This document shows positions 2,697-19,986 of a stretch of DNA of 64,000 bases, piece after piece. Each line of letters opens with the position of its first letter. The stretch's first letter is position 1. The notes under the pieces were generated by a model. It had not been told where the DNA came from. It ran no database searches and worked only from the letters and a program-made list of their open reading frames with translations. Position numbers and translations under genes: made by a program. Source of the stretch: Myxococcota bacterium (GTDB lineage: Bacteria > Myxococcota_A > UBA9160 > SMWR01); the NCBI GenBank assembly GCA_039030075.1, contig JBCCEW010000027.1, positions 1 to 64,000 on the forward strand. The letters are read 5' to 3'.

Positions 2697-2719
2697 CGAT
2701 CCCATCGCTTTTTCTGTAA
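2685..2719. promoter_or_regulatory. 35-bp interrupted palindrome, probable operator of the paaX-like/desaturase operon
   Basis: TTACAGA-N3-AGCGAT-CCC-ATCGCT-N3-TCTGTAA is an exact dyad centred on 2702, with 13 of 16 arm positions paired. It ends 11 bases before the regulator's GTG and overlaps a possible -10 (TAACAT, 2717-2722) that would start transcription at or next to the GTG, implying a leaderless mRNA. The inner AGCGAT/ATCGCT hairpin followed by T5 could also act as a terminator for the small upstream ORF. Confidence 0.65.
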
Positions 2720-2729
2720 CATTGCGTGC

Positions 2730-4597: not shown

Positions 4598-4675
4598 GGC
4601 GCGGAGCCGCCGGGTCGCCACCGTTCACGCCGCGCGCATGAACCGCCCGCGCGCGTGGGCTAGGCTGCGGCTACT

Positions 4676-4751
4676 GCGCGAGTAGCTCAGTTGGTAGAGC
4701 ATCAGCTTCCCAAGCTGAGGGTCGCCGGTTCGAACCCGGTCTCGCGCTCCA
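4676..4751 (+). tRNA. tRNA-Gly (anticodon CCC)
   Basis: A 76-nt cloverleaf with a 7-bp acceptor stem (GCGCGAG/CTCGCGC), D arm GCTC...GAGC, anticodon stem TCAGC/GCTGA with loop TTCCCAA (anticodon CCC), T arm GCCGG-TTCGAAC-CCGGT, discriminator T and encoded CCA. Its 3' part (from 4702) forms the left attachment site of the mobile element, and the gene is kept intact by the insertion. Confidence 0.95.
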
Positions 4752-4752
4752 G
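4702..4752 (+). repeat. attL: 51-bp direct repeat within tRNA-Gly
   Basis: Bases 4702-4752 (anticodon stem to one base past CCA) are identical to 19889-19939. The sequences diverge on both sides (a/t-c and g/a-g). A tyrosine integrase gene lies just inside. This is the classic arrangement of an element integrated in the 3' half of a tRNA gene. Confidence 0.95.
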
Positions 4753-4760
4753 AGATTCCG

Positions 4761-4803
4761 AAGGCCTCGTAGTCGAAAACCGGCGCGGGGCCTTTGCTTT
4801 TTC
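4761..4803 (+). terminator. Terminator supplied by the element downstream of tRNA-Gly
   Basis: AAGGCC (4761-4766) pairs with GGCCTT (4789-4794), and the hairpin is followed by TTTGCTTTTT. It lies inside the element and replaces the tRNA gene's original terminator, which now sits at 19948-19986 beyond attR. Confidence 0.6.
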
Positions 4804-4864
4804 GTGCAGCGTCGCCGCTTGCGACACGGGTCGAGCGACTTCCTGCCACTGGGAAACGCGGAAC

Positions 4865-4883
4865 TGACGGCCTAGTGACGGCC
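4865..4883 (+). repeat. Paired TGACGGCC repeats at left end (possible integrase arm sites)
   Basis: TGACGGCC occurs at 4865-4872 and 4876-4883, start-to-start 11 bp, with the second copy running into the integrase stop codon. A matching pair lies near the right end (19778-19797) and an inverted pair at 9685-9703. Such tandem short repeats near both ends are what arm-type integrase sites look like. Confidence 0.5.
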
Positions 4884-6043: not shown

Positions 6044-7020
6044 TACTTTGTCCTCCTGTTCTTTCCCTTGAGCCACCCTTGAACGGTCTTCGTATCCGAG
6101 TCGAGCTTCTTGGCGATCTTCGCCGGCGTCATACCCCTCTGCGCCAGCTTCACAGCCTCTCGCTTCCTCTCGCGATACGCCGCCATCCGGCACTTTTCGG
6201 AGCAGTACTCCCTGCTCCGGCGCGTCTTGCGACGGTTGTCCACGATGAAAACGTCGTTGCATACGAGGCATCGCTTCTCGACACGCTCAATGTCGAGCGA
6301 GTAGGCGAACTCCAACCAAATCAGCCCCAGTAGAGACCGAGCCTGATCTCTCATCTCAACGCGATCGCCATAGAGAACGGGCCGACGGAGCACGGCCGGA
6401 TCAAACGATTCTGTTTCGGGATGTAGCGAGCGACGCCGACCTCCGAACTGGTCGGTTACGCGTGCTACGACCAGTTGCCGCAACCGACGACTCGCTAGCT
6501 CCTTGCTGTCAAACCGCTCAGCAGACGAACGAGGGAGTAGGTTCGCCCAGACTTCCCCACCGCTCTCGGTCAATCCGACGCGCGAGCCCAACGAAGCCGA
6601 TGCTGTCTTGTGCCACCACGACAGCCTTTCGTTCATCTCCTTGAGTGTCCCGCTCTCCGCGGCCTCCCATGAGCTCATTGCGAGGCGCAGGTCCAGAGAT
6701 TCAGAGATCCAACTGTCAACTCGCTCCGCCCAGGGTTGCTCGCCCTCGGCGTCGTGGACTGTGACCGGGACTCGCTCCCAGATTCCGAGCATCCCGAACT
6801 CGTCCGCGAACGCCTGAACCGCGCCGAGAGCCTCTTCGCCTTGATAGGCGAACAGACTTGAGAATCGACGGTGCAGAGGTGGACCCCCCTCTGCGGGCAG
6901 GAAGAGATCCTCTTCGTCGCCGGTCCACCAGACGAGCCATGCCCCAGCTGGGGCTTCGTGAATGCCGTAGCCACCTGGGTCGCGGCGCCAATTCAGGACC
7001 ACGCGGTCCGCAAGCTCCAC
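6043..7020 (-). CDS. Zinc-finger/HTH protein coupled to the integrase, unknown function
   Basis: A 325-aa protein, first gene of the integrase operon. The N-terminal two thirds have no family I can name. Near residues 255-290 a zinc knuckle is readable: CLVCNDVF ... YCSEKCRMAAYRERK (CxxC and CxxxC pairs), resembling the zinc finger of CGNR/ABATE-type regulators. The last 45 residues form a basic HTH-like segment (GMTPAKIAKKLDSDTKTVQGWLK). The likely role is DNA binding, perhaps directing integrase or regulating the early region; this is inference. GTG start with GGAGGGGA upstream. It diverges from the excisionase-like gene at 7174. Confidence 0.7.
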   Translation of the reverse strand: MELADRVVLNWRRDPGGYGIHEAPAGAWLVWWTGDEEDLFLPAEGGPPLHRRFSSLFAYQGEEALGAVQAFADEFGMLGIWERVPVTVHDAEGEQPWAERVDSWISESLDLRLAMSSWEAAESGTLKEMNERLSWWHKTASASLGSRVGLTESGGEVWANLLPRSSAERFDSKELASRRLRQLVVARVTDQFGGRRRSLHPETESFDPAVLRRPVLYGDRVEMRDQARSLLGLIWLEFAYSLDIERVEKRCLVCNDVFIVDNRRKTRRSREYCSEKCRMAAYRERKREAVKLAQRGMTPAKIAKKLDSDTKTVQGWLKGKNRRTK

Positions 7021-7038
7021 CGGCTCCCCTCCATCGGT

Positions 7039-7062
7039 TGTTACGCGATGAACACGATAACA
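7039..7062. promoter_or_regulatory. Inverted repeat in the divergent early promoter region of the element
   Basis: TGTTA (7039-7043) and TAACA (7058-7062) are symmetric about 7050.5, beside an AT-rich run (ATATTTTTTA) that stands out in this GC-rich region and could hold a -10 element. The site lies between the leftward int operon and the rightward excisionase-like gene. The same half-site recurs in the palindrome at 13069-13090. Confidence 0.45.
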
Positions 7063-7173
7063 TATTTTTTACCGTGGTTGCGAATTTCGAGTCCCGACGG
7101 CACATTCCTCACTGCGGAACGCGGGAATACACACAGGTGGCCGAGCGTGTCCGCCTGGAACTCAGGAGGCCCT

Positions 7174-7404
7174 ATGCCGGATCGAGATCCTTCAAGCCCT
7201 CAAATCAATGCGGCGCACCAGGGCGACGACGAGTGGGAGGACGGTGCTCTCGGCGGCAGCAACCGCTGGGAGTTCATCGGGACCAGCAGATCGCGTTGGT
7301 ACGAGCTCGTCCGGGAGGGCGAACTTGTGGTCGCGCGCAACGGAAACCGACTGGTGTCTTCGGTCAAGAGTTCGAAGGCGTACCTGGCTCGGAACCGGGT
7401 CTGA
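7174..7404 (+). CDS. Excisionase/AlpA-like small DNA-binding protein
   Basis: A 76-aa protein beginning MPDRDPSSPQ with AGGAGG five bases before the ATG. The C-terminal half (GSNRWEFIGTSRSRWYELVREGELVVARNGNRLVSSV, described here as about residues 25-62) has the layout of MerR/Xis-type winged helices found in AlpA and excisionases: a helix-turn-helix followed by a short beta wing. Placed divergently from int and upstream of the replication gene, it is the likely directionality or early regulatory factor of the element. Lack of a close named relative keeps confidence moderate. Confidence 0.65.
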   Translation: MPDRDPSSPQINAAHQGDDEWEDGALGGSNRWEFIGTSRSRWYELVREGELVVARNGNRLVSSVKSSKAYLARNRV

Positions 7405-7479
7405 CCCCAACCCCTCAACGCAGAAGCGCCCCGCCCCCCGTATTCAGCGACGAGAGGGCCGAGGCGCTGGAGCGAAGCG

Positions 7480-9408
7480 ATGAGTTTATCGCGATGGACC
7501 CGAGAGCACCCCTGCCCCATCTGCAGCGGGCACGACAAGCTCCCACGCGGTCACGGAGAGCGCTGCCACGGGTACCTCTCTTCCGATTCCCTGTACGCCT
7601 ACTGCGCGCGAGAGGAACTCGCCGGCAGCCTGACGCCGCAGGGGGAGTCTGGATGCTACCCGCACCGTCTGGAGGGCAAGTGCCGCTGCGGCGAGACGCA
7701 CGGCATTGCCAAGTGCGCCTCGAAGCCAAACGGCGTGGCACGTAAGCGCGCGTTCTCCCCGAGTTCGGCAAATCGGTCCCATGGGTCCGTCTTGCGCGAC
7801 CTCGGCCCTGAGGTCGCCTCGTACCAGTACCAGGATGAGGACGGGCAGCCGCTCTTCGAAGTCGTGCGCTTCGAGGCCCCTGATGGCGGGAAGGAGTTCC
7901 GCCAGCGCGCCCCGGACGGCACCTGGAGCGTCCAGAGCATCCGGAAGGTGCCCTTCCACCTACCCGAGCTCCTCCGGGCCGTGGCGGCCGGCGACTCGAT
8001 CTACGTTGTCGAAGGCGAGAAGGACGTGCTCGCGGTCGAGGCAGCCGACTGCGCCGCCACCTGCAACCCCGGCGGCGCCGGGAAGTGGCAGGACGATTGG
8101 GCTCCGCTCTTCGACGGCGCCCACGTGATCGTCGTCCAGGACAAGGACGATCCCGGCGAGAAGCACGCCCGGAAGGTGTACCACTCACTAAAGAACGTAG
8201 TGGCCAGCATCCGTGTCGTGGAGGCTGCCAGCGGGAAGGACGCCGCGGACCACTTGAAGGCGGGGGAGCGGATCGACAGCTTGGTGGAAGTCAGCCTCGA
8301 GACCCAGGAAGACAGGACGGGGCGACTCAGGATCCTCACAGCCACCGAGATCGAGCAGGACCGGGCACCACGGGAGATCGTCGAACGCCTGATCCACGAG
8401 GACTCCCTGCACTCCATCGTTGCCCCTGCGAAGGGTGGGAAATCGTTCCTCGCTCTTCAGCTGGGACTTGCGGTTTCCCATGGTGAGCCCTTTCTCGGGC
8501 AGCGCACCCGCCAGGTACCGGTGCTCTATGTGTCCACTGAGCCTGGGATGAGCGCGGCGGTGCTCAGAGGGCGGCTCGCAGCTATCGCGCGGGATGTCGG
8601 ACTCCCCGCACCAGACTTCGACCGCGGGCTAAGGGTGGCTGCATCCACGACCGAGCGCGGTGCGCTCGACCTGGACCTGACAACGGATGAAGGCCGCGCC
8701 GAGCTGCGCGACGCAGTTCGAGAATCCGGGGCCGGCTTGGTGGTGCTGGACACCTTCTACAGCATGTCGGGGGACAAGGACATGATCGACAACCTCCAGA
8801 TGAAGGAGGTCTACCTCGAACTCTCGCGCCTGGGGAAGAACGAGAGATTCGCGAACGTCCTCCTCGACCATTCCGGGAAGTCCGCAGCCGAGGGGTTGCC
8901 AGTGAGCTTGTCCGCGATCGGCGCGTCTTCGAAGGGCGGCGCGTGCAACACCATCATTCAGCTGAACCGGCAAGGTGGCGCCTGGGAGATGAAGGTGGCC
9001 TCACACTTCGGCACCTGGGATGACCCGCTCGTCTTCACCCGCCCCATGTGTGACGGGAAGCCGGGCTTTGGCGTCGTGCCGACTAGCCACGCCGAAACCA
9101 ACGACATCGACATCTCCTGGCTCCAGGAGCTCTTCGAGAGCCATGGCGAACGAAGCGACGCGTACGAGGGCTGTCTCCACTTCGGCTCCGCTACCAAGCT
9201 CAAAGCAGCCCTTGCGAAGAACGGCATCACCAGCACCCCGAACCAGGAGGCCATCGACGCGGACATTCGACGGCAGTTCTGCTTCTGGCCAACCACCTCA
9301 CCCATGAACCGAGATGGGAAGCCGATCGAGGTCCTAGACGGATCCCGGAGCGCTCGAATCTATGTCTGGAGGTGGGGGGAAACGACCTCCACCACCGCCC
9401 CTATATAG
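7480..9408 (+). CDS. Toprim + RecA-like primase-helicase (element replication protein)
   Basis: A 642-aa protein with an N-terminal zinc-binding part (C12, C15, C29/H30, C42, then CRC near 68-70), a Toprim domain (VEGEKD at 177-182; DKDDPG at 221-226) and a RecA/AAA-type ATPase with Walker A APAKGGKS (315-322) and Walker B LVVLDTF near 415-421. This layout is that of phage and satellite primase-helicases which prime and unwind the element's own origin. The C-terminal 150 residues may bind DNA. GGAG precedes the ATG. A 10-bp inverted repeat (9385-9394/9422-9431) spans the gene's end. Confidence 0.85.
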   Translation: MSLSRWTREHPCPICSGHDKLPRGHGERCHGYLSSDSLYAYCAREELAGSLTPQGESGCYPHRLEGKCRCGETHGIAKCASKPNGVARKRAFSPSSANRSHGSVLRDLGPEVASYQYQDEDGQPLFEVVRFEAPDGGKEFRQRAPDGTWSVQSIRKVPFHLPELLRAVAAGDSIYVVEGEKDVLAVEAADCAATCNPGGAGKWQDDWAPLFDGAHVIVVQDKDDPGEKHARKVYHSLKNVVASIRVVEAASGKDAADHLKAGERIDSLVEVSLETQEDRTGRLRILTATEIEQDRAPREIVERLIHEDSLHSIVAPAKGGKSFLALQLGLAVSHGEPFLGQRTRQVPVLYVSTEPGMSAAVLRGRLAAIARDVGLPAPDFDRGLRVAASTTERGALDLDLTTDEGRAELRDAVRESGAGLVVLDTFYSMSGDKDMIDNLQMKEVYLELSRLGKNERFANVLLDHSGKSAAEGLPVSLSAIGASSKGGACNTIIQLNRQGGAWEMKVASHFGTWDDPLVFTRPMCDGKPGFGVVPTSHAETNDIDISWLQELFESHGERSDAYEGCLHFGSATKLKAALAKNGITSTPNQEAIDADIRRQFCFWPTTSPMNRDGKPIEVLDGSRSARIYVWRWGETTSTTAPI

Positions 9409-9431
9409 GAGGTCATGGTGATGGTGGAGGT
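9385..9431. repeat. Inverted repeat spanning the end of the primase gene
   Basis: ACCTCCACCA (9385-9394) is the exact reverse complement of TGGTGGAGGT (9422-9431), with a 27-base loop that holds CTATATAGGAGG. It could form a transcript hairpin over the stop codon or mark an origin-proximal site. No T-tract follows. Confidence 0.4.
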
Positions 9432-9909
9432 CAGCGGTGAAACGAGTGTCACACGGAAGCAAGCCGAGCTGGCGCTCGCGCGCCCAGCTTCGGCTCTTGC
9501 ATTCCGTAGGGATGACTGGTGTAGGTCGGTGGCGGTTGGTGTCGGTGGTGAGAGTGGACCGGGTCCGTCAGCGTTTTCTGCCCCGATTCGGGACCGGGTT
9601 AAACGTCATGGAAGCGCGCGCAGATTTCGGGGCGACCTGGGAGAATTGACCCCCCGGTATGCCGCTGCGAACAGCCTCCCCCCTGGCCGTCAGTTGGCCG
9701 TCGAGGCAGAAAACCGCAGCCACCACAGTCGCTTGGCGCTGACCCTTAGCTACGCAAGCGCAGGGTACTCGCCGTTGACCCGAGGGAATGCTGCGGCCGC
9801 CGGCGATTCGCGGGGACAGAGGGAGAGGAGGTCCCCCTCCTCGTGGGTTCACCTCGGGCCGCCTCAACGATTCACAGGGCACGATGCCCAAAGAAAGGGA
9901 GAACGAACC
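9409..9909. other. Long intergenic stretch after the primase gene, possible origin region
   Basis: No convincing gene lies here. A 70-codon frame from a GTG at 9437 has a fair GGAGG site but no family resemblance, and a frame from 9415 runs through into the next gene. The stretch holds an inverted TGACGGCC-type pair (9685-9703) and a purine/pyrimidine hairpin (GAGGAGG...CCTCCTC near 9825-9842). Its place directly after the primase gene is typical of a satellite replication origin, but I see no clear iteron array. Confidence 0.4.
9685..9703 (-). repeat. Inverted TGACGGCC pair inside the element
   Basis: GGCCGTCA (9685-9692) and GGCCGTCG (9696-9703) are, on the minus strand, CGACGGCC and TGACGGCC with the same 11-bp period as the left-end pair at 4865-4883. 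It may be a third binding site of the same protein. Confidence 0.4.
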
Positions 9910-10260
9910 TTGAGCTTGAACAACAACGAACTCTTCATCGGAGCCTGCGTCCGGAACGACCACGAGCGGGCCGCTCTGTTGTTCCTAGAGGAGGCGTTTG
10001 CGGCGGAAGACGACGCTTTCTCCAAGACTCAGGAACTCGCGTACATCGACTATTGGTGTGACTACGACACCGATCCGCTCGGGCTCGTGATTGTCGAGCG
10101 CACCCAGGATTGGCTACGAGCCTACTACCCGGACAGCCTGGGCTTCATGGCACCGGGGAAGCAGTTGCCCTTTGCGCAAGCCATCATCGCGCGGTTCAGG
10201 GAGATCTGGCCCGCGCGTGCGAGTGCGCCGTGCGACGATTCAACCTCGCCGGTGAATTAG
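9910..10260 (+). CDS. Hypothetical protein
   Basis: A 116-aa acidic protein starting LSLNNNELFIGACVRNDHE from a TTG that has GGGAG 9 bases upstream; the open frame extends further up but that part has no protein-like character. It contains several aromatic and acidic residues (YIDYWCDYDTDP) and no motif I can name. It overlaps the next gene by about 30 bases, suggesting co-translation with the HTH protein. Confidence 0.5.
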   Translation: MSLNNNELFIGACVRNDHERAALLFLEEAFAAEDDAFSKTQELAYIDYWCDYDTDPLGLVIVERTQDWLRAYYPDSLGFMAPGKQLPFAQAIIARFREIWPARASAPCDDSTSPVN

Positions 10261-10574
10261 TCCAGGACCCGGACCTCTCCCGCCAGTTCACGGGCGCGTG
10301 TGTTCGGGCCTGGCGGGAGTCCACGGGCCTCTCCAGGGCTCGTCTGGCCGCCATCCTCGGCTGCTATGAGAGCACTGTCCAGAGATGGGAAGCCAGTGCC
10401 GTGGTGGCGCCCCGGGTCGTGTTCCAGCTGGCGGGCACGGAAAGACTCGTCCGACGCCTGAACTACCAGCGGCGGGAGGCCAAGCACTCCCGGGACTACC
10501 GGCGTCGTCGCGACGTTTGCGAAGACCGGATCAAACGCGGTTTGAAATCAGAGCCGGAAGTGCCCCTCTGGTAG
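10230..10574 (+). CDS. Small helix-turn-helix protein
   Basis: About 114 aa from a GTG at 10230 (start uncertain; the frame is open from 10110). The segment ACVRAWRESTGLSRARLA followed by AILGCYESTVQRWEAS is a Cro/XRE-type HTH, with a basic Arg/Lys-rich C-terminus (YQRREAKHSRDYRRRRD). It is likely a DNA-binding regulator of the element. No ribosome-binding site is close to the GTG, so translation may be coupled to the preceding gene, which it overlaps. Confidence 0.55.
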   Translation: MRRFNLAGELVQDPDLSRQFTGACVRAWRESTGLSRARLAAILGCYESTVQRWEASAVVAPRVVFQLAGTERLVRRLNYQRREAKHSRDYRRRRDVCEDRIKRGLKSEPEVPLW

Positions 10575-10688
10575 CAGGCATGAGAAAGATTGCCCTGGAC
10601 AGTGGCGGAGGTGCCTGGACAGGCCGTATCTTTCCGAGTTACCCCCTCCAAGAAACCAGCAACTTCCTCCGTGAAGAGGAAACGGTCA

Positions 10689-11396
10689 ATGGCGACCGAA
10701 TTTGGAGATGTATCCGTAGCAGGACCCCAACAGCCCCAGGTCCCGATCACAGGCTTGCCGCCGCAGGTCTTGCAGCAGATCGCCAACCAGGCGAGTCAGC
10801 AAGCGGCGATTCAGTCGGCCAAGACGCACTATGTCTCGTTCTCTGCCGAGGTGGTGCCGCACACGATCGAATCGTTGCTCGCACTGTGCGCCGACCTGGT
10901 GAACAAGCATCAGCCGGACGAGATCTACCTCGCCCTCAATACCCCTGGCGGCCAGGTCGCCTGCGGGATCGGTGCGTACAACATGCTCCGGGCACTGCCG
11001 GTGAAGATCATCACGCACAACGTGGGTGCGGTTGATTCGATCGGAAACGTGATCTTCCTAGCGGGTGACCAGCGCTATTGCTGCTCGAACGCGGGTTTCA
11101 TGTTCCATGGCGTCGGATTCGACATCAATGGACAGAACCTGCGCCTGGAGCGGAAGCTACTCGGAGAGCGACTCGACGCTTTGCAGGCAGACGAGCGCAA
11201 GATCGCCAGCATCATCTCCGATCGGACCGAGATGACGGACGATCAAGTCGAAGAGTCCTTCCTGAACCAGGTCACCCGCGATCCGGACTTCGCAAAATCC
11301 AACGGTATTGTTCACGAAGTCCGAGACCTGGACATTCCGAAAGGCGCACCCATTTACCAGCTTGTATTCCAGCGGCAGGGCGTCGTTGTCCGGTAG
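10689..11396 (+). CDS. ClpP-like serine peptidase
   Basis: A 235-aa protein of the ClpP/crotonase fold. NTPGGQVACGIGAYNML (84-100) matches the ClpP substrate-groove motif; S117 in GAVDSIGNVIFLAG and H140 in NAGFMFHG take the places of the catalytic Ser and His, and D198 in TRDPDF is the likely third residue. A 45-residue Gln-rich N-terminus is extra. No Clp ATPase is nearby. In phages and satellites ClpP-like proteins act as head-maturation proteases, but they lie in the head operon, whereas this one stands alone. A role in regulation or defence is equally possible. GAGGAA precedes the ATG; the frame upstream to 10590 is not needed. Confidence 0.8.
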   Translation: MATEFGDVSVAGPQQPQVPITGLPPQVLQQIANQASQQAAIQSAKTHYVSFSAEVVPHTIESLLALCADLVNKHQPDEIYLALNTPGGQVACGIGAYNMLRALPVKIITHNVGAVDSIGNVIFLAGDQRYCCSNAGFMFHGVGFDINGQNLRLERKLLGERLDALQADERKIASIISDRTEMTDDQVEESFLNQVTRDPDFAKSNGIVHEVRDLDIPKGAPIYQLVFQRQGVVVR

Positions 11397-11599
11397 GGTC
11401 GGGAGGAATTCGTCGGTCACGGGGGGGAGCCTATCACGCACCATGATACACCCCTGTGAAGCAGTTCACCGATGACATTATCGGCAGGTCGATCCAGAGG
11501 GATTAGCGACATTCTGTTCGAGTCGCAAATTCTGGGGGTTGGCCGTCTTGTTGCGCATTCGTTAAGGAGCTCTAGATCCCCCTTTTCCACACCTGCGCC

Positions 11600-12103
11600 C
11601 TACTCCAGCGCCCTCAGCACCTCGGTGCTGTTTTCCGCCGTCTTGCGGGCGAGGTCCTCGAACCCTGGGTTGGCGGCCAGCTGACGCACTCGCTCCTGGA
11701 CCGCGACTAGTTCTGCCCGCTGCACCGGGAGTCGCTCTCGGAGGCTGAGGAGCCTGCGGAGCCGCTGTGTGCGGCCCTTGGCAGTGAGCACCTTGCCCTT
11801 GCTGCGGCCACTGCGCGCGCGCATCGGTTCACCGCTCACGAACTCGGCCTCAATCCGCGCGGCCTCCTTCTCCGCGTCTCGGATCCGCGCTCGAAGCCCC
11901 TGAGCGTGGGACTCCAACAGGGACCGCTCCGAGGTGGCCTCGGGCAGGATCGCGTCCAGTCGGTGCCACCGCGCCACCATGGCGGCGAGCTGGTCAGCGG
12001 GTCGTTCCAGCACCCGGCGTTGGTGGTCCTCGTCAAGGCCCAGGACAACCTGGGCGGCCTTCTCGCGCAACTGCATCTGTTCTGCTTCGTTCAGCATCAG
12101 CAT
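11600..12103 (-). CDS. Hypothetical coiled-coil protein
   Basis: A 167-aa, highly charged, almost entirely helical protein (MLNEAEQMQLREKAAQVV ... ARIRDAEKEAARIEAEF ... RLRRLLSLRERL) with heptad-like spacing. GGAGATC stands just before the ATG. It is the last gene of a leftward group with 12120-12554 and 12554-13042. No function is recognisable; the helical, repetitive nature would suit a structural or scaffold-type role. Confidence 0.6.
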   Translation of the reverse strand: MLMLNEAEQMQLREKAAQVVLGLDEDHQRRVLERPADQLAAMVARWHRLDAILPEATSERSLLESHAQGLRARIRDAEKEAARIEAEFVSGEPMRARSGRSKGKVLTAKGRTQRLRRLLSLRERLPVQRAELVAVQERVRQLAANPGFEDLARKTAENSTEVLRALE

Positions 12104-12119
12104 GATCTCCAGCTTGGGG

Positions 12120-12554
12120 TTAGTTCAGAGTTTCAGTGCTCGGCTCAGCGAGCCTGCCACCCTGCCGGGCCAGAATGGCGGCCTCCTCTGAGAGCCGGAC
12201 GAAGGTACGCATGCTTCCGCCCTGGAGTGAGTCCGTGTAATCGAGGAAAGCGGGTAGACGCAGGAGTTCGGCGTAGACCTGCATCGCCTTCCAGTCGGCT
12301 CTCGGGCGAACCAACCTCTCAGGTTTGCCCGTGTCGATGATGCGATGGCACGTCCAAAGGAGCTCGTTCGCGCTGAACGACATGCTGACCCATTCCTTGT
12401 GGGAGGGATCGTCACTAGGAATGTGCGTAAGGGCGTCGTGGATGAGCTCGAAGGTCTCGTAGTGGTACTCGCGGAGCCATCGACGGGCGCGCTTCGGCGT
12501 CAGCTTGTTCCAGGGGACGGGAACGAAATCGATGTGGAATCTGTCGATACCCAT
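12120..12554 (-). CDS. Hypothetical protein, coupled to its upstream neighbour
   Basis: A 144-aa protein starting MGIDRFHIDFVPVPWNKL, with GGAGG upstream. Its ATG shares one base with the stop of the gene before it (TGATG). The sequence has the helical, aromatic-rich look of an alpha-helical bundle (RWLREYHYETFELIHDALTH). The opening motif xIDFVPVPWNK resembles the opening of the neighbouring 162-aa protein (TNVIPVPEWKNRGEAL...), so the two may be diverged relatives. Confidence 0.65.
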   Translation of the reverse strand: MGIDRFHIDFVPVPWNKLTPKRARRWLREYHYETFELIHDALTHIPSDDPSHKEWVSMSFSANELLWTCHRIIDTGKPERLVRPRADWKAMQVYAELLRLPAFLDYTDSLQGGSMRTFVRLSEEAAILARQGGRLAEPSTETLN

Positions 12555-13042
12555 CACCGCCCCTCCGACCGATAGGTCTCGGCGCGATCCGACCTCATCT
12601 CGCGCGACCACCAATGAGAGGCTTCGGCCTTGAGCTGGGTCGCCGCATTCTCCAGCGCCGCGGTGAGAAGCTCGTAGGTCCTGGGCCAGAGCTGCGCCCC
12701 CTTGTCGCCGTACCCGAAGCCGTCGTCCGTCTTGTCGCGAAGCTCTCGGATGCTGCGGGCGATCTCCTGGGTCTGCTCCGAGGCGTGCACCGAATCTACG
12801 TCGAGTCGGCAGCGCGGGTGTTCGAGGAACTCCGGCACCGCCTGCAAGACCATGGCGAAGTCCTCCAGGAGCATCTCGGGAACGTAGACGCCGGCGTGCA
12901 CGAGGTCCGCGAGCACGAGCGTCCAGTCCCGGAAATCGCCGCGGAGCCAATCGAGGGCCTCGCCGCGGTTCTTCCACTCGGGAACCGGAATGACGTTGGT
13001 GGGGATCGATACGATGGGGCCGGGCTGGACTGTGTCGGACAT
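12554..13042 (-). CDS. Hypothetical protein, first gene of a leftward operon
   Basis: A 162-aa acidic helical protein (MSDTVQPGPIVSIPTNVIPV ...). GGAG lies 8 bases before the ATG. Its N-terminus shares the pattern IPVPxWxxRxEAxxWLR with the next protein (FVPVPWNKLTPKRARRWLRE), followed in both by a helical region. The palindrome at 13069-13090 lies just upstream and is probably its operator. Function unknown. Confidence 0.65.
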   Translation of the reverse strand: MSDTVQPGPIVSIPTNVIPVPEWKNRGEALDWLRGDFRDWTLVLADLVHAGVYVPEMLLEDFAMVLQAVPEFLEHPRCRLDVDSVHASEQTQEIARSIRELRDKTDDGFGYGDKGAQLWPRTYELLTAALENAATQLKAEASHWWSREMRSDRAETYRSEGR

Positions 13043-13068
13043 GGGTGGACTCCAGTGGTGGGAGGCAT

Positions 13069-13126
13069 TGTTAACATTTAAGCGTTAACATAGGCTGCCA
13101 TGGAGCCGCAACGGGTAAGTGTTAAC
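13069..13126. promoter_or_regulatory. GTTAAC palindrome and extra half-site between divergent genes
   Basis: TGTTAAC (13069-13075) and GTTAACA (13084-13090) form an exact inverted repeat; a third GTTAAC lies at 13121-13126. They sit between the leftward hypothetical operon and the rightward zinc-ribbon/YaaC-like genes, where a repressor could control both. Half-sites resemble those at 7039-7062. Confidence 0.55.
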
Positions 13127-13134
13127 TTTCCCGG

Positions 13135-13335
13135 GTGGGGCTAAAGAGGCTTGAGGCCGAGCACCGGACTCGGCGGAAGACCGTCGTGGTCGACGAGTAT
13201 CGGTGCGTCGTCTGCGGCGAGTGGACAGCGGCGAAGCGCCCTCGGCTGACGTGCTCGGACTCACATCGTGTGATGCTGGCGCGGATGCGGAAGCGCGGCG
13301 AGATGCCCCCGCACACCCGGTCAACGGAGTGTTAG
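13135..13335 (+). CDS. Small zinc-ribbon protein
   Basis: A 66-aa basic protein from a GTG. YRCVVCGEWTAAKRPRLTC followed by SDSH gives a CxxC...CxxxH pattern of a treble-clef or zinc-ribbon finger, followed by a basic tail (RVMLARMRKRGEMPPH). It is probably a nucleic-acid-binding or adaptor protein. The start has no good ribosome-binding site, and it lies 4 bases before the YaaC-like gene, so the two may be co-expressed. Confidence 0.5.
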   Translation: MGLKRLEAEHRTRRKTVVVDEYRCVVCGEWTAAKRPRLTCSDSHRVMLARMRKRGEMPPHTRSTEC

Positions 13336-13339
13336 CCAG

Positions 13340-14350
13340 ATGCGCCTCCACTATGTCGGTTCGTTCCAGCGAGGGCACCACCACCCGTCTGAAAGCGCGG
13401 CCGGAGAAGCATGGGGCCAGCTCTCACGGTACGGAGCGGTCAACTTTCTATCAGCCTTCAGCGGAAATATCGGCGGCGAAGATCCCGACCGTCCGCGAAT
13501 AACGTCGTATGCGGCCGTACGGATCCGTCAGGGGGTTGAGTTTCGGAGTTTTTCGCAAGACGGCTCGCTTCTGACTGCGCCGCTCTCCTTGTACTACGCC
13601 GCGTTGAACGCCGCACGCGCGTGCCTCGCGCTCGAAACGGGAACCGAATCTGGGAAGAGCCACGGGCTCACGTTTCGCCTGGGCGAAAGCCTGATGGATT
13701 GCCATGCGATCATCGCCAAAGGTACGTACGCAGATCTCCTTGCCGCGTTCGACGTGTCGTTCGAGGTCGGAGACGAAATCTCGTTGCGAGATGCCCTATC
13801 GGCGATTCCAGAGATAGCTCACGAGTTCAACTCCCCGGACCGGGGATTGACGAACGTGTACTCGGTCTCGGTCAAAGCGGCACGAGGCGAACTAACGCTT
13901 CGCGTGAACGACTCCTACCGGCCTCTTGAGGATTTTGCAGCCAGCTGGCGAGATTGGTTTCCGATCCTCGCAACGATCTGCGCGTACAACGAGAACGAAC
14001 GCAGCCTGGCCCTGGTCGATGCAGGGTCAATCGCTGGCCCGGAAACCGTTGAAGAGTTCTGCAACGCTCACCTTGAGACCAGCCTCACGTGGCTCAATGC
14101 TCCAATCTGGTGGCTTATTCGACACCCCGTATCGAAGCTGGAATTGCCACGGATCGCCTACTACTTCGTTGCCCTCTTCATCCTGGGAAGCGTCGTCCGC
14201 TATGAACCCGAGATGATGATCGAAGCTGCATCACCTGATGACGAGCTCAACTGGTTCTTGCAGCGATTCCTTGCAGCGGCAGATCGGCATGTGCCACAGC
14301 TGCTCGTCTCGCGGCTCCGCGGACACAACGTGTTTTTCCCCTCGGTCTAG
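13340..14350 (+). CDS. YaaC-like protein of unknown function
   Basis: A 336-aa protein with GGAG 9 bases before the ATG. The order of motifs - W-x-L-x-x-Y near residue 25, an SYAAVRIRQG segment, TAPLSLYYAALNAARACLAL (about 80-98), then SHGLTFRL - is that of the YaaC-like family and of other HEPN-type helical proteins in which PLxxYYxxxNxxRA packs against a His-Gly-Leu turn. No R-x4-6-H motif is seen. A C-terminal hydrophobic stretch (IAYYFVALFILGSVVRY) may contact the membrane. Base composition is lower in GC than the chromosome. Possibly cargo of the element. Confidence 0.55.
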   Translation: MRLHYVGSFQRGHHHPSESAAGEAWGQLSRYGAVNFLSAFSGNIGGEDPDRPRITSYAAVRIRQGVEFRSFSQDGSLLTAPLSLYYAALNAARACLALETGTESGKSHGLTFRLGESLMDCHAIIAKGTYADLLAAFDVSFEVGDEISLRDALSAIPEIAHEFNSPDRGLTNVYSVSVKAARGELTLRVNDSYRPLEDFAASWRDWFPILATICAYNENERSLALVDAGSIAGPETVEEFCNAHLETSLTWLNAPIWWLIRHPVSKLELPRIAYYFVALFILGSVVRYEPEMMIEAASPDDELNWFLQRFLAAADRHVPQLLVSRLRGHNVFFPSV

Positions 14351-14360
14351 CCGTGCTCGC

Positions 14361-15245
14361 CTACGCTCCCGACCCGCGAGCTCTGCGCTGCGCCGCCAAC
14401 TCACGGAGGAGCGATTCGACGGTCGCCCCAACGCGTGGCACGCGTTGTTCAACGAAGATCGGATCGTCGATCTCCGGCAACGCCCTAGGTAACGCTCCCA
14501 GAATCCGCGCCTGGGCCTGGAGGACGCTTAAGGTCATGACGACGAAGAGGCCGGGGTCATCCGGGTCGAACTCTTGCGCCTTGATCTGAATAGCCTGGTG
14601 AAACTTCCCGCCCGCAACCTCGTGCTTTACGTCAAGTCCGAAGGCGATTCCCAGGAATCGAGAATGCATTGCAAACGAAGACGCCCGCTCGTAGGCATCG
14701 TGTAGCCCGAAGTCTCTCGCGGCCGACCGAACCGCGTGTTGGTGTGTCTGGAAGAACGCGCGGCCGTCGGCTTCGGTTGAGATGTCCTGCCACTCCGACG
14801 CGATCTCAGGGCTCTCACTCATGAGGTAACAAAGCGAAAGAGACTCCACCTGCAGTCTTGTGTAGGCAAACGGGGCGGAGAGTCGAAAGCGAAGCAGATC
14901 CGCGAACGCGGCCGAGTTCAATACTGCGATCTTGGCAAGGAGAGTGCCTCGTGATTCGCGGCTCCTGAAAGCGTGCAGCGCATCCCTCACCCGGGGGTTT
15001 GTGCCCGCATGAGCCGGGAGCTCGCCGTCGGATTCCAGGCCTAGCTCCTCTACAAGCTCTTGAATGGGTTCGTAGTGCCGGTCGCTGAAGCTCTGGGTAA
15101 GCACGCGCAACGCGGTGTCATAGAGACCGCATACGTCATTGAGAGCCGACCAGAAACCGGGACAATGATCGCTGAGCACGCTCTTGCAAATCGGGACGTT
15201 CTCATTGTCCGCTTGCAGAAGCTCATCGATAGTCGGGCTAAGCAT
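14361..15245 (-). CDS. Hypothetical helical protein, element cargo
   Basis: A 294-aa protein, almost all helical, converging on the YaaC-like gene. The central part (TRLQVESLSLCYLMSESPEIASEWQDI in two pieces, about residues 130-157) resembles the conserved helix of DUF5677-type proteins, in which an Arg and Glu on one helix face a Leu-rich partner. I cannot assign a function. The start has only a weak ribosome-binding site. It heads a leftward series with the genes at 15279, 15771, 16428 and 16938 that are each separated by tens of bases rather than overlapping. Confidence 0.5.
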   Translation of the reverse strand: MLSPTIDELLQADNENVPICKSVLSDHCPGFWSALNDVCGLYDTALRVLTQSFSDRHYEPIQELVEELGLESDGELPAHAGTNPRVRDALHAFRSRESRGTLLAKIAVLNSAAFADLLRFRLSAPFAYTRLQVESLSLCYLMSESPEIASEWQDISTEADGRAFFQTHQHAVRSAARDFGLHDAYERASSFAMHSRFLGIAFGLDVKHEVAGGKFHQAIQIKAQEFDPDDPGLFVVMTLSVLQAQARILGALPRALPEIDDPIFVEQRVPRVGATVESLLRELAAQRRARGSGA

Positions 15246-15278
15246 GTGTTCGTACCCGCCGTTTGACCGCGCGACGAC

Positions 15279-15737
15279 CTATCGAAGCTCGTCTCGGATC
15301 CGTAAGGCCTCCTGAACCACATCCCGTTTGTCGAGGTTCGTGTCAGGGTCTCCTCCCGAAACTGCGTTCGAGAGGTACACCAAGCCCTCCCGCGCGATGG
15401 CGATATTCGAAAGGCTCGGAACTATCCCTAGGTACGCCCAAACGCGATAGTGCGGAACGAGATGTGCGCGTGCTGCGAGCTGCGTGGCTCTCTGCCGCAG
15501 GACGAGAGAGGATTCCATCTCCCGCTCAGGAGAGTGCGCGCCCGGATTGGCGAAGACATTCGAGTGGAACACGAGGTCATCGGCAACTTCACCGATCAGC
15601 ATTCGCAGACCCTGAACGGGCTCCAGAACAACTTTGAGTAGTACTTGTCCCACAACGAATACTGCGACTCCTCCGAGTACTGTGAATGCCATCGTGACGG
15701 CCGCCTGCTGAAACTCAACCACAGAGCCCTCCTCCAC
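15279..15737 (-). CDS. Single-pass membrane protein of unknown function
   Basis: A 152-aa protein with one N-terminal membrane helix (AVTMAFTVLGGVAVFVVGQVL), then a cytoplasmic helical part with conserved-looking features: PVQGLRMLIGEVADDL, FHSNVFANP, VLRQRATQLAARA and a closing LGIVPSLSNIAIAREGLVYL-SN. This pattern (one TM, Arg-rich helix, P-S-x-x-N and L-S-N) is shared by a widespread family with no assigned function. GTG start with GGGAG seven bases upstream. Confidence 0.6.
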   Translation of the reverse strand: MEEGSVVEFQQAAVTMAFTVLGGVAVFVVGQVLLKVVLEPVQGLRMLIGEVADDLVFHSNVFANPGAHSPEREMESSLVLRQRATQLAARAHLVPHYRVWAYLGIVPSLSNIAIAREGLVYLSNAVSGGDPDTNLDKRDVVQEALRIRDELR

Positions 15738-15770
15738 CCCAAGCTCCCAGGGGCCGCTTAGTCACAGAAC

Positions 15771-16340
15771 TTAGTCGCTGCGCGATCGCACTCCGAACTC
15801 AGCGAGGAACGGCGCAAGATCTTCTGGTACCGAAGTGAAGTGCTTTGAGGAACGCTCGCGGAAACGCTCGAACAGAACGTCGTCAATTGCGATGCGCTTC
15901 AAGTAGCGCCTCACGGCCTCCACGAACGCCGATACAAGCTCCTCGACCCGCACAGCTACGAACTGGTCGGGAGCGAGGGCCTTCATTGCATTGGAAATCG
16001 CGTCGAAATCAGACTGACCATACGAGTAGCCTATGCTCCGAACGCCGAACTTCGCTCCAACCCGCGAATCCGGTGTCAGCGTATGGAGCAAACCGCATCT
16101 AGCTGCATAGAGCTCAAGAGCGGTGCACTCCAGCGCGCTATCGGGGAGCAGATAGCTATCGACCCATCTCGTGAACGACTCGCGCACCGACTGATCCGCC
16201 GGGGCGGTTAGCCAGCTCAGCGCGTCAATCCCGGTGTAAAGCAAAATCAGGGCCGGGATGGGTAGGCCTTCCGCAACGCAGCGCTCGATTCCCTGACGGA
16301 GCTGAACAAGCGTTCGCGATGTTCCCTCGGCGTGCTCCAT
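15771..16340 (-). CDS. HEPN-type protein (candidate ribonuclease)
   Basis: A 189-aa helical protein. LILLYTGIDALSWL (32-45), FTRWVDSYLLP (56-66) and ELYAARCGLLHTLTPDS (76-92) are the conserved blocks of a HEPN-like family, with the R-x4-H motif at R81-H86 that forms the active site in HEPN RNases of toxin-antitoxin and abortive-infection systems. The gene stands alone between two membrane-protein genes; no MNT nucleotidyltransferase partner is adjacent. Its place in the cargo region suggests a defence or toxin role, which is inference. Confidence 0.65.
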   Translation of the reverse strand: MEHAEGTSRTLVQLRQGIERCVAEGLPIPALILLYTGIDALSWLTAPADQSVRESFTRWVDSYLLPDSALECTALELYAARCGLLHTLTPDSRVGAKFGVRSIGYSYGQSDFDAISNAMKALAPDQFVAVRVEELVSAFVEAVRRYLKRIAIDDVLFERFRERSSKHFTSVPEDLAPFLAEFGVRSRSD

Positions 16341-16427
16341 TCATCTATCCGGTGAGATTCAGCATCATCTTGTCTGGTGCAGCTCGCAGCAGCGGGCACG
16401 GTTCTTCCGAACACACGGACTCGCCAA

Positions 16428-16856
16428 CTAGGCGCGTCTTTCGGGCGCCCGCGATCTCATATAGAGCTTGCCGAGCGAAGTCAGCTGAACTTCCGCTGCG
16501 TCAGCCAAGTAGGCATTCCTTGGAACAGTCATCACCAAGCCAAAGTTCCGCAGCGGACGAATCAGCTTTCGCTGGCTTGATGAAGGCTTCTCTGGATACT
16601 GAATGGCGCCCGAGGCGTGGATCTCGTCTAGGTACGCCTGCTCCGAGTCAGTGAGCGAGCCGCCCACTTGCTCCTGGAGTGCTCCTTCCAGCTCGGGAAG
16701 GCTCGTCTCGATCTTCTGGCCGAAGAGAGAAAGCGTGAGCTTCGAGCCACCGAGCAAGGCGGGAAGACTACCGCGAACCACCACGACTCCGATCAGTGCA
16801 ACTACAGGCCAAGCGAGAACTTTCAGTAACTTGATCGTCTCATCTAAAGACAACAT
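16428..16856 (-). CDS. Membrane-anchored protein with C-terminal winged-helix-like part
   Basis: A 142-aa protein with one N-terminal membrane helix (VLAWPVVALIGVVVV), a short linker with polar beta-strand character (KLTLSLFGQKIET) and a C-terminal segment (SQRKLIRPLRNFGLVMTVPRN ... VQLTSLGKLYM) reminiscent of a small winged helix. The layout suggests a membrane sensor or anchor that pairs with another cargo protein. No family recognised and the ribosome-binding site is weak. Confidence 0.5.
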   Translation of the reverse strand: MLSLDETIKLLKVLAWPVVALIGVVVVRGSLPALLGGSKLTLSLFGQKIETSLPELEGALQEQVGGSLTDSEQAYLDEIHASGAIQYPEKPSSSQRKLIRPLRNFGLVMTVPRNAYLADAAEVQLTSLGKLYMRSRAPERRA

Positions 16857-16937
16857 GACCGGAAAGATGCCCCCGTATTCAGTGCCTCACATGGCTGATC
16901 TGGCCCCAGGATGCTCCGTACCGCTCAACCCGCGGAC

Positions 16938-17309
16938 CTAGAGGAAGCTCCAGCGTGCTGAGAGGTAGGAGGAACACAGGATCATTGCATTCGCAACGAG
17001 GTACCTATTGTAGGGACCTCGCTTCTCCGTAGGAGCGTACTGTGCACGGTGAACTGTCTTGAACAGTAGCCATCCACCGATCGCGCCAACTTGAGAAGAC
17101 ACGATGAGCATCGGGTACGCCAGCATCTCGAAGATACCGAGAACTAGCGGTAGCCAACTCGAAGTGCGAAACGCCGTGGGCCATGGCACTTGAGTGCGAG
17201 AGGCCAGTTCGTGGGAAGTGACCGCTCGGACAGCGAGGGGGCTAGCAGCCGCCAACGCTAGGTACACGAGCCAGCAGTCAGGGCTCCTCGTAAGAAGCGT
17301 CTCCACCAT
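16938..17309 (-). CDS. Small multi-pass membrane protein
   Basis: A 123-aa protein with about three hydrophobic segments: CWLVYLALAAASPLAVRAV, WLPLVLGIFEMLAYPMLIV and a C-terminal LVANAMILCSSYL. AAGGAG lies three bases before the ATG. The central YNRYLVANA motif after a basic loop (EKRGPYNRY) has no family I can name. It is followed by about 175 bases without a gene before the phage-like operon. Confidence 0.5.
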   Translation of the reverse strand: MVETLLTRSPDCWLVYLALAAASPLAVRAVTSHELASRTQVPWPTAFRTSSWLPLVLGIFEMLAYPMLIVSSQVGAIGGWLLFKTVHRAQYAPTEKRGPYNRYLVANAMILCSSYLSARWSFL

Positions 17310-17485
17310 CAGCTCCTTGGCTCATCCGAAGTAGCCCCTGAATGTGTAGGGAGAGATCCGCTCATCCAGCGGGACCAGCTTCCGACGAAACGGCACAAAA
17401 GGGCAACACAGAAAGGTCTCTGGGACAGCCCCGAACAGAGGAATGCGCAAGCTCGATTGCCCTCCCGACACTACCAATCGGGCGA

Positions 17486-18028
17486 CTATGCGATGTTGCC
17501 TCCCAGCACGCTCGGCCCACCCGTCGCGGGAAGGCGTCGACCGGTTCCCGTCGTGAGCCTCGTCGAGCTGGAAGACGACCGGGGCACGGAGTTGATGAAG
17601 CCACTCGCTGAGCGCACCCCACCGGAGACGGAGAGAAGCGCCCCCTCGATGGCCTGGTTGCGAGCAGCGCGCTTGAAGGCACGGCCCTCTGCCACCTGTT
17701 GGGCTGCCAGCCGTCGCCCGCGCTCACGGAGGCGCTGAACAGCGAACTGCTCGCGGAAGACGCTCTCCGCCAGCTGGCCCAGGGGCGTGCCCGTATCGAC
17801 CCGCACGCCGGCACCGGCGAACGAGGACCGAATGGTCCCGCGTTCGTAGAGCCCCTCCAGTCTGCGGAGGAACACCTCCTGCTCGGCGTCCTGCCGAATC
17901 TGAATCGCGTTCTTCCGCGCTGTGCGCCGAGCGCGAACGCCCGCGCGACGCAGCTCCACGGCATTGAGGATCGATCCTGCCCCCTGCCCAGCCAGGCCGA
18001 GGGCGAGTAGTGCGGCGGCTGCTGCCAT
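17486..18028 (-). CDS. Phage internal virion/structural-like protein
   Basis: A 180-aa Ala/Arg-rich protein. The N-terminal segment LLALGLAGQGAGSILNAVE, the middle FAGAGVRVDTGTPLGQLAES and the Ala-rich GRAFKRAARNQAIEGALLSVSGG match a common layout of internal virion or head-associated proteins of short-tailed phages (hydrophobic start, a SGVRVxTGSPLxxL-type box, then a repeated A-R-x2-A region). It is the last gene of a tightly overlapping four-gene operon (TAATG junction with the gene before). Identification rests on pattern only. Confidence 0.55.
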   Translation of the reverse strand: MAAAAALLALGLAGQGAGSILNAVELRRAGVRARRTARKNAIQIRQDAEQEVFLRRLEGLYERGTIRSSFAGAGVRVDTGTPLGQLAESVFREQFAVQRLRERGRRLAAQQVAEGRAFKRAARNQAIEGALLSVSGGVRSASGFINSVPRSSSSSTRLTTGTGRRLPATGGPSVLGGNIA

Positions 18029-18363
18029 TATCCGAGACTCCTATTCGAGAGAAGGGGTGTTCCGAGGGCATTGCGGCGGTTCTGCTCCGCCAGGTTCCCG
18101 CCGGTGCCCAAGAGCGAGGTTCGCCCTTGCGAGCTACGGACCCGGAACTGGGTCAGCGCCGCCTTCCGACGCTCTCGCTCCACCTCCTCCGGGTCTGCCT
18201 CGTCTTCGGGAACGGGTGGGTTCCGGCCTGTCGTATCGCCGAGATTCTTCCGGGCGATGCCGCGCAACGCGGGGTCGAGCAGCGGGCCAGCCAGCAAGCT
18301 GGTGACGGCGCTGCCCGTGCTGTCCCGCAGCGTGCGGCGAACGACTTTCTTGAAGGTGCCCAT
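18028..18363 (-). CDS. Small phage-like hypothetical protein
   Basis: A 111-aa protein starting MGTFKKVVRRTLRDS after AAGGAGG. A hydrophobic segment (VTSLLAGPLLDP) is followed by an acidic/proline linker (NPPVPEDEADPEEVERERRK) and an Arg/Gly/Ser tail (RVRSSQGRTSLLGTGGN ... GTPLLSN) of a kind often seen in small head-associated proteins. Start and stop overlap its neighbours by one base each (TGATG, TAATG), so the four genes are translated as a coupled unit. Confidence 0.5.
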   Translation of the reverse strand: MGTFKKVVRRTLRDSTGSAVTSLLAGPLLDPALRGIARKNLGDTTGRNPPVPEDEADPEEVERERRKAALTQFRVRSSQGRTSLLGTGGNLAEQNRRNALGTPLLSNRSLG

Positions 18364-18932
18364 CAGGCCGCCTCCTTCGCTGTTTGGGGAAGGAGCAAGT
18401 GCCATGCGCCGGGCTTGTTGAGCGCCACCAACGTGCCCGAGCCGGGGGGCAATGCGTGTGGTCCGAAAGCGCAATGCAGCCGACCGGTGTGGCCGCTCAG
18501 CGTGTACCGGCCGCCGACGCGGACGCAGTTGACGAAAAACCGGGCTTCGATCCAGTCATCGGATTCCGGATTGCCGATGCCAACCCCCTTGTTCCCAGGC
18601 ACGAGCGGCGAGTGGGCGTCATCGAGGGCGCCGTGACCGCCGACCAGCACCCCGAGCGGCGTGATGAGGTTCACGCGGGGCGACCGCCGTGCGTTCTCAG
18701 CCGTGCCGCGAGGCACCACGAGCTCTACCCGTACTGAGGCGCCGCCCTCCTCCGCGAACAGTCCACCATCGCTCGCTTGTAGGGCCGTGAGCCCCATCAA
18801 CTTGGCGGAACCACCACACACGCTCGCATTGGTTGTGAGCGTGTAGTCCATGGTCAGCTCGTGGTTCGCGTAGTTGATCGCCTGTTTGACGACAGGTGTC
18901 GGAATCGCAATCTCGACGCGTTGGGTGTTCAT
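18363..18932 (-). CDS. Phage-like hypothetical protein, beta-rich
   Basis: A 189-aa protein, N-terminus helical/polar (VEIAIPTPVVKQAINYANHEL) then a long beta-rich part with Gly/Val stretches (VRVELVVPRGT, NLITPLGVLVGGHG, GRYTLSGHTGRLHC). It lies where a capsid or decoration protein would follow a scaffold gene, but at 189 aa it is shorter than an HK97-type major capsid protein and I see no coat-protein signature. Its start overlaps the stop of the scaffold-like gene (TGATG). Confidence 0.5.
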   Translation of the reverse strand: MNTQRVEIAIPTPVVKQAINYANHELTMDYTLTTNASVCGGSAKLMGLTALQASDGGLFAEEGGASVRVELVVPRGTAENARRSPRVNLITPLGVLVGGHGALDDAHSPLVPGNKGVGIGNPESDDWIEARFFVNCVRVGGRYTLSGHTGRLHCAFGPHALPPGSGTLVALNKPGAWHLLLPQTAKEAA

Positions 18933-19615
18933 CAGCTCTCCTTCTTTGCCGTCACGCCGTGGTGCGTTCGGCGACGGTGCAGCTCATCGAGCTCGGCACG
19001 GCGCTTTGCGTGGTCGGGGTGCCCGCCGTCGAGCAGCTCCCGCTTATGCTTTTCCCAGAAGGTATTGATCGCGTCCGCTTCAACCGCTTCACCTTCACCG
19101 AGACGCGCCACTCGCTCTTGCTCGGCGCGAGCCTCGGAACGGGCCACGATCCGGTGCAGCCCGTCCAGCTGGCGCCGTCGCAGATCCTGCAGCGGGTGAC
19201 CGTTCGAGTAGAGCTCCCGGTCATGAGCAAGACGGAAGCGGCCTATTTCGTCGCGAGCCTGTGCGGAAGTCAACGACAGTGGGTCGACGCCGGTCTCCAG
19301 GCGATAGCTCTCGAACTCACTCGCTTGCTGCGCGAGTCGACGAATGACGTGCGGGTTGTTGCCGCGCGTTCCGAACTCGGGATCGGGCTCGTTCACGAGC
19401 GCGTCGAACTCGCTACCGAAAACGCGCTGGGCGAAGACCGACGCCGACTCGACGGCCTCGTGAGCGGGCTGACTCGGGTTGGCTGCTTCGAGCTGGTCGA
19501 GCGCGAGGCTGCGGGGATCGGGCGGCGACGCCGGGACGGGCAGGGAAACAGTCGCCGAGGTGGCGTTTTCCGACGCCGCCGCCGAATCAGATTCCTGGGT
19601 GAGGATGGATTCCAT
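18932..19615 (-). CDS. Scaffold-like phage protein
   Basis: A 227-aa acidic, helical protein, first gene of the operon, with AGGAGG nine bases before the ATG. After a low-complexity Ala/Pro N-terminus, two copies of a helix-turn motif are seen: RELYSNGHPLQDLRRRQLDGL and RELLDGGHPDHAKRRAELDEL (each about 20 residues). The pattern N/D-G-x-HPxH-x-x2-R-x3-L-x-x-L is typical of the C-terminal helices of phage scaffolding proteins that bind coat subunits. Upstream only 270 bases remain before attR, so the rest of a head module (terminase, portal) is missing here. Confidence 0.5.
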   Translation of the reverse strand: MESILTQESDSAAASENATSATVSLPVPASPPDPRSLALDQLEAANPSQPAHEAVESASVFAQRVFGSEFDALVNEPDPEFGTRGNNPHVIRRLAQQASEFESYRLETGVDPLSLTSAQARDEIGRFRLAHDRELYSNGHPLQDLRRRQLDGLHRIVARSEARAEQERVARLGEGEAVEADAINTFWEKHKRELLDGGHPDHAKRRAELDELHRRRTHHGVTAKKES

Positions 19616-19777: not shown

Positions 19778-19797
19778 TGACGGCCCGTTTGACGGCC
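19778..19797 (+). repeat. Paired TGACGGCC repeats at right end (possible integrase arm sites)
   Basis: TGACGGCC at 19778-19785 and 19790-19797 (start-to-start 12 bp), about 92 bp inside attR. Same 8-mer as the pair at 4865-4883, in the same orientation. It is the counterpart expected for arm-type binding sites. Confidence 0.5.
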
Positions 19798-19888: not shown

Positions 19889-19939
19889 TCAGCTTCCCAA
19901 GCTGAGGGTCGCCGGTTCGAACCCGGTCTCGCGCTCCAG
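19889..19939 (+). repeat. attR: 51-bp copy of the tRNA-Gly 3' end
   Basis: Identical to 4702-4752. It lacks the 5' half of the tRNA (acceptor 5' strand and D arm), so it is not a functional tRNA gene. Chromosomal sequence resumes after 19939 with the tRNA gene's original terminator. Confidence 0.95.
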
Positions 19940-19947
19940 GTTTTCGG

Positions 19948-19986
19948 AGCCCCTTCGCGTGTTTGCGCGAGGGGGCTTCGTCGTTT
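19948..19986 (+). terminator. Original terminator of the tRNA-Gly gene, displaced by the insertion
   Basis: AGCCCCTTCGC (19948-19958) pairs with GCGAGGGGGCT (19967-19977, one G-T pair), followed by TCGTCGTTTT. It lies nine bases beyond attR and would have directly followed the tRNA before the element inserted. Confidence 0.75.

Follow-up and report, generated by a model that had tools for sequence, protein, structure and literature searches.

A 15.2-kb integrative element, apparently intact, occupies a tRNA-Gly (CCC) gene in the window, that is, the whole 64-kb stretch of DNA analysed here. At its right-hand end it carries a cassette of four genes, two of which appear to encode a scaffold-derived protein and an ejection protein of podophage type. 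The cassette is probably the late operon, directed at the virion, of an intact satellite that is PICI-like and depends on podoviruses, and its scaffold would redirect the coat protein of the helper. The element is called PICI-like, rather than a PICI, because no small terminase or packaging-redirection gene was found in it.

The assignment of the cassette to the right-hand end of this element follows from the att repeat, the integrase and the paired arm-like sites (Table 1). The two att cores are identical at 51 of 51 positions in a blastn self-comparison (E 8.6e-21). Close direct pairs of the 8-mer TGACGGCC occur only twice in the 64-kb window (4865/4876 and 19778/19790), and since one pair stands beside each att core, as integrase arm sites should, we regard these pairs as arm-site-like. 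The true start of the integrase probably lies inside the listed ORF. When the element is circular, the cassette comes directly behind the integrase, with attP between them. Its PICI-type traits include insertion at an att site together with a tyrosine integrase gene, a primase-type replication gene of its own (TOPRIM + AAA_25) and, as described below, the lack of portal, large terminase, coat and tail genes.

Table 1. Features of the integrative element and its boundaries (positions in the window).
Feature	Position	Strand	Evidence or remark
tRNA-Gly (CCC), integration target; 3' part is the att core	4676-4751	+	ARAGORN, Rfam RF00005
attL core, 51 bp, identical to attR	4702-4752	+	blastn self-comparison
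Arm-type-site-like pair, TGACGGCC twice, 11 bp apart, beside attL	4865-4883	+	
Tyrosine integrase, adjoins tRNA	4883-6271	-	PF00589 1.4e-16; phrog_1 1.1e-66
325-aa protein with C-terminal HTH, probably regulatory	6043-7020	-	HTH_23 E 1.5e-4, under curated cut-off
TOPRIM + AAA_25 primase-helicase, replication	7480-9408	+	PF13481 1.4e-26; Toprim matches; phrog_239 2.5e-29
HTH regulator	10110-10574	+	HTH_31 2e-5, under curated cut-off; L193 homologue E 1.5e-9
ClpP-like serine protease	10590-11396	+	PF00574 5.4e-17; phrog_94 head maturation protease 1.2e-14
Three small family-less genes (162, 144, 167 aa)	11600-13042	-	
Lower-GC accessory block: YaaC-like, phrog_7512, phrog_12390, others	13340-17309	.	
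180-aa internal virion (ejection) gene, putative	18028-17486	-	podophage phrog_418 type
111-aa gene	18363-18028	-	tentative podophage 'KTLLG' protein relative
189-aa orphan gene	18932-18363	-	coat position, directly after scaffold gene
227-aa scaffold-like gene	19615-18932	-	first of the four cassette ORFs
Arm-type-site-like pair, TGACGGCC twice, 12 bp apart, beside attR	19778-19797	+	
attR core	19889-19939	+	a terminator-like hairpin (19945-19980) comes next

The middle of the element holds genes of other kinds. The ClpP-like protein matches a head-maturation-protease profile, yet its gene is grouped with the replication and regulatory genes, away from the cassette; a role as prohead protease was considered and is left open. 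For the three small family-less genes, Pfam and PHROG gave no match worth naming, and those of 162 and 144 aa overlap by one base at 12554. The accessory block has a GC content of 0.59, as against 0.63 across the whole element, and is probably cargo.

The four cassette genes form a real operon and are not a chance arrangement, as is clear from the one-base overlaps and from a ribosome site for each gene. All three junctions between 19615 and 17486 are one-base overlaps (TGATG, TGATG and TAATG), and each start has a Shine-Dalgarno-like site (AGGAGG for the 227-aa gene, AAGGAG for the 189-aa gene, AAGGAGG for the 111-aa gene and TAGGAG for the 180-aa gene). The GC bias by codon position is of the coding type in all four. 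No close relative of the four-gene cassette was found, and it is absent from all 15 of the loci examined around related primases.

The first gene of the operon encodes a 227-aa protein that is not recognised by Pfam, PHROGs or PDB sequences and that yielded nothing in direct searches of IMG/VR and INPHARED. It contains a 34-residue internal repeat, the score of which was reached by none of 2000 shuffles, and its two HPxH/HPxD motifs lie within this repeat. The protein contains two copies of a domain with the pattern TPxEA...I...D...HPxH...L, which is the C-terminal domain of podophage scaffolds (phrog_3742-like). From 17 podophage scaffolds, hand-picked for the domain and with the window sequence left out, a profile was built of the final 62 residues; it ranks the 227-aa ORF first among the 829 ORFs of the window (E 6.2e-5, 18.9 bits), the next ORF having an E of 2.5. 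Its score was reached by none of 1000 shuffles, either for the whole protein or for each copy. Residues 62-153 also align to the scaffold of a prophage in genome G096, again with 0 of 1000 shuffles as good.

A full-length scaffold profile gives the 227-aa protein an E of only 1.1. The weakness of this match is explained by a missing N-terminal half, and the C-terminal domain modelled alone gives the signal. Of the 277 positions in the scaffold profile, only 201-275 are matched; each of the 118 scaffolds collected from podophage loci starts at or before position 80. By profile match, the N-terminal half of podophage scaffolds (the LGRP region) is absent from the protein, which is therefore classed as scaffold-derived and not as an ordinary scaffold. 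Judged by its sequence, it is a podophage scaffold that has lost its N-terminal half and has its terminal domain doubled. A single-sequence structure model is all-helical (pLDDT 71.8) and places both HP motifs at inter-helix turns. A fold search with it found no significant match, which is no surprise for a helical model built from a single sequence.

The last gene of the operon encodes a 180-aa protein, residues 3-142 of which are matched by positions 8-147 of the 166 in phrog_418, an internal virion protein family (E 2.6e-4). A separate ejection profile built from podophages ranks this ORF first of the 829 in the window (E 0.006; 0 of 1000 shuffles). When the protein was compared with 66 podophage families in an unsupervised test, the internal virion protein family again came out best, scoring 12.2 bits (shuffle maximum 6.5). 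The closest relative found belongs to a prophage in genome G028, which is from the same bacterial family as the host. A direct search of IMG/VR and INPHARED with the protein found nothing, nor did a query made of a three-row alignment of ejection proteins. The profile matches support membership of the podophage internal virion (ejection) family. The original prediction had described four coupled genes with one-base overlaps, among them a scaffold-like protein with two HPxH-type motifs and an internal-virion-like protein, and all of these points are borne out.

The neighbouring 111-aa protein resembles, tentatively, a small podophage protein that ends in KTLLG. This was its best match among the 66 podophage families (10.0 bits, shuffle maximum 3.4), and the genes for 'KTLLG' proteins sit near portal or ejection genes in podophages. 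A profile restricted to the C-terminus, where the family has a [KR]GR..T[IL]LT.. / KTLLG signature, gave no confirmation: 29 of 1000 and 787 of 1000 shuffles scored as high or higher.

Genes for TerL, portal, coat, tail A and tail B are absent from the element, whether intact or decayed, as judged by tblastn and profiles with queries from seven podophage loci. These queries gave clear hits in the G028 prophage, which served as positive control. The cassette had been singled out for the lack of a capsid gene; this proves correct, and portal, terminase and tail genes are missing as well. A small terminase or packaging gene was likewise not recognised in the element, either by Pfam and PHROGs above noise or with the small terminase of a second element, L193, as query. 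Not every PICI has a small terminase. The host genome, a draft in 55 contigs that is 95% complete, shows neither a podophage portal (phrog_332) nor a Terminase_6N match, and its only phrog_418 protein is that of the cassette; hence no resident podophage helper is visible to these profiles.

The second element, L193 (G045:C282), was found by a whole-genome search of 377 genomes of the phylum with a scaffold C-terminal alignment that included the two window copies. It comes from the same bacterial order as the host. Like the window element, it has a tRNA target, with att repeats at tRNA-Arg (CCG), and encodes homologues of the window integrase (1.9e-14), the TOPRIM/AAA_25 primase (4.7e-11) and the HTH regulator (1.5e-9), the last being the gene directly upstream of the L193 scaffold gene. 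An excisionase-like HTH is also present. The 255-aa scaffold-like protein of L193 matches phrog_3742 only at 172-284 of 287 (E 5.1e-16) and starts at position 160 of the 277-position scaffold profile, so that here too only the C-terminal half is represented. No portal or coat was detected in L193 by tblastn and profiles, and tail genes are lacking in both elements. L193 differs from the window element in having one terminal domain, no ejection protein and, directly after the scaffold gene, a small terminase (phrog_51, 1.1e-7). An integrase, a primase and a small terminase without portal or coat are the usual make-up of a PICI-type satellite, to which L193 adds a phage-type scaffold cut down to the C-terminal half.

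Several other loci came to light in these searches. The L193 region (2347-18802) has three att-like repeats (2347-2398, 16259-16312 and 18742-18802), and a second piece of about 2.5 kb seems to follow the element, with a NACHT/Mrr-type nuclease gene at 16680-18413; this is perhaps a tandem integration carrying a defence gene. A match to the L193 scaffold in IMG/VR (L196) proved to be an ordinary podophage contig and was set aside. In the Deltaproteobacteria MAG OFTM60 (L003/L036), two copies of a phrog_11043 small protein (3797-4171 and 6096-6377) lie close to a related TOPRIM/AAA_25 element, which may be one further satellite or a tandem pair. Podophage-type prophages with scaffold, coat and ejection genes are found in the phylum at L194 (G096:C23), L181 (G028:C31) and L009-L010 (G069:C2). 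All of these are candidate helper types for the satellites, including the G028 prophage from the host's own family.

A podovirus-dependent satellite would work as follows. When a short-tailed phage with a matching coat infects the cell, the element would be excised and copied by enzymes that it encodes. The helper coat protein could then be bound by the doubled scaffold, which would replace the helper's own scaffold or act alongside it, and the coats would form shells that serve the satellite and are probably smaller than those of the helper. The hybrid particle would incorporate the 180-aa protein, perhaps together with those of 111 and 189 aa, and the helper would supply coat, portal, terminase and tail. 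Helper dependence, binding to the helper coat, a change in capsid size and the placing of the ejection protein in a hybrid particle are what we infer from the genes. Action on a helper's capsid is the best supported of the ideas in the original prediction, which had ascribed it to the 189-aa protein as a decoration protein; the 227-aa scaffold appears to be the agent instead. Counting against a satellite are the lack of a recognised packaging gene, which is the main gap, the unexplained 189-aa gene, which makes up a quarter of the cassette, and the failure to see a resident helper.

The strongest of the alternatives, itself unlikely, is a podophage remnant, from which deletion removed terminase, portal, coat and tail but not the genes for integration and replication. 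Such a shrunken prophage would account for the podophage origin of all recognisable cassette genes and for their one-base overlaps, which are frequent in podophages of this type, and the draft state of the host genome, in 55 contigs, also counts in its favour. However, no fragment of any missing gene is present, the three coupled junctions are exact and accompanied by four ribosome sites, and the att ends and arm-like sites are intact; on the same evidence, the deletion scar that had been offered as one explanation for the missing coat gene is unlikely. The scaffold, moreover, shows more than a cut, since its C-terminal domain is doubled. It is mainly the independent case of L193, which pairs a scaffold of this kind with a small terminase and has no portal or coat, that leads us to prefer a satellite over a remnant.

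A less probable alternative still is an anti-phage island, in which the cassette would act as a decoy scaffold that jams the assembly of an infecting podophage to the benefit of the host, the element itself not being packaged. A doubled domain of the coat-binding type without the N-terminal half would make a good competitor, and the element has accessory genes and no recognised packaging gene of its own. An ejection protein, however, would be needless for a decoy alone, as would replication genes for an immobile defence island. Several known satellites do both.

The gene for the 189-aa protein directly follows the scaffold gene, which is the place of the coat gene in podophages. The protein has no match in Pfam, PHROGs, PDB sequences or the 66 podophage families, and no relatives in IMG/VR, INPHARED or the 377 genomes of the phylum. 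A weak match in genome G055 (E 4.8e-4) was rejected as an antisense frame of an acyl-CoA dehydrogenase gene. Comparison with profiles of the BcepC6B gp09-like and HTVC010P-like post-coat proteins gave no match, and these families are too diverse for the absence to count. Structure prediction had been suggested for both the 227-aa and the 189-aa protein; for the latter it gave an unusable model (pLDDT 31.5). The proposal that the protein is a very short coat is unlikely: it matches no coat profile or sequence, is shorter than the 280 aa or more expected of an HK97-type coat and falls far short of the coats of related phages (284-330 aa). That the element is a complete miniature virus making its own particle from a small, non-HK97 coat is thus very improbable, in spite of the gene's position and of a mostly strand DSSP assignment in that very poor model, since the protein is unlike any coat, the scaffold is of the type found in HK97-coat podophages, and no portal, terminase or other packaging ATPase is recognised in the element. 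The 189-aa protein is perhaps virion-associated, possibly as a decoration protein or in some other virion role.

A precedent for redirection of a helper coat by a satellite scaffold is provided by SaPI1 of Staphylococcus aureus, whose CpmB protein has the same coat-binding C-terminus as the 80alpha scaffolding protein, competes with that protein for the coat and yields smaller capsids (PMC5644958). SaPI1, a PICI, is like the window element in its size of about 15 kb and in having an integrase and a primase. CpmB resembles the 227-aa protein in being an internal scaffold, in consisting of helices only and in having its coat-binding C-terminus in common with a phage scaffold. The window element differs in the podophage family of its scaffold, in the two copies of the terminal domain, in showing no small terminase and in its extra virion-type genes (ejection, 111 aa and 189 aa), and a size change would here be deduced from genes. 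Other satellites that remodel a helper capsid include P4, with the external scaffold Sid and the decoration protein Psu, and the Vibrio cholerae PLE with its capsid-remodelling protein (PMC6893505, PMC10945586). Sid is an external scaffold, whereas the 227-aa protein is an internal one like those of phages; the searches made with the cassette proteins turned up no sequence relation to Sid, Psu or the PLE protein. The scaffold C-terminus and the internal virion protein, and tentatively the 111-aa protein as well, have their source families in podophages of the HTVC010P, BcepC6B and G028/G096 prophage type. These phages have TerL, portal, coat, tail A, tail B and a full-length scaffold; in contrast, the window element is without the first five, and its scaffold is shortened and doubled.

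A few satellites that exploit long-tailed phages of well-studied hosts are known to have scaffolds that hijack capsids. The window element would be a short-tailed-phage case, in an uncultured lineage, and it offers a clear structural hypothesis, in which a phage scaffold was reduced to the half that binds the coat and was then doubled. More such satellites can likely be found by looking for scaffold C-termini without a neighbouring portal, given that L193 has both a scaffold and a small terminase. The cassette also raises a question, which we did not meet in the open-access literature searched, namely why a satellite should bring its own ejection protein. A bolder proposal, possible but rather doubtful, is that podovirus satellites of one lineage in this bacterial class make hybrid particles, for which they supply an internal scaffold with two coat-binding domains, an ejection protein of their own and perhaps the 189-aa protein as a virion component. 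If this is true, such satellites would control both the size of the shell and the entry of DNA into the next cell.
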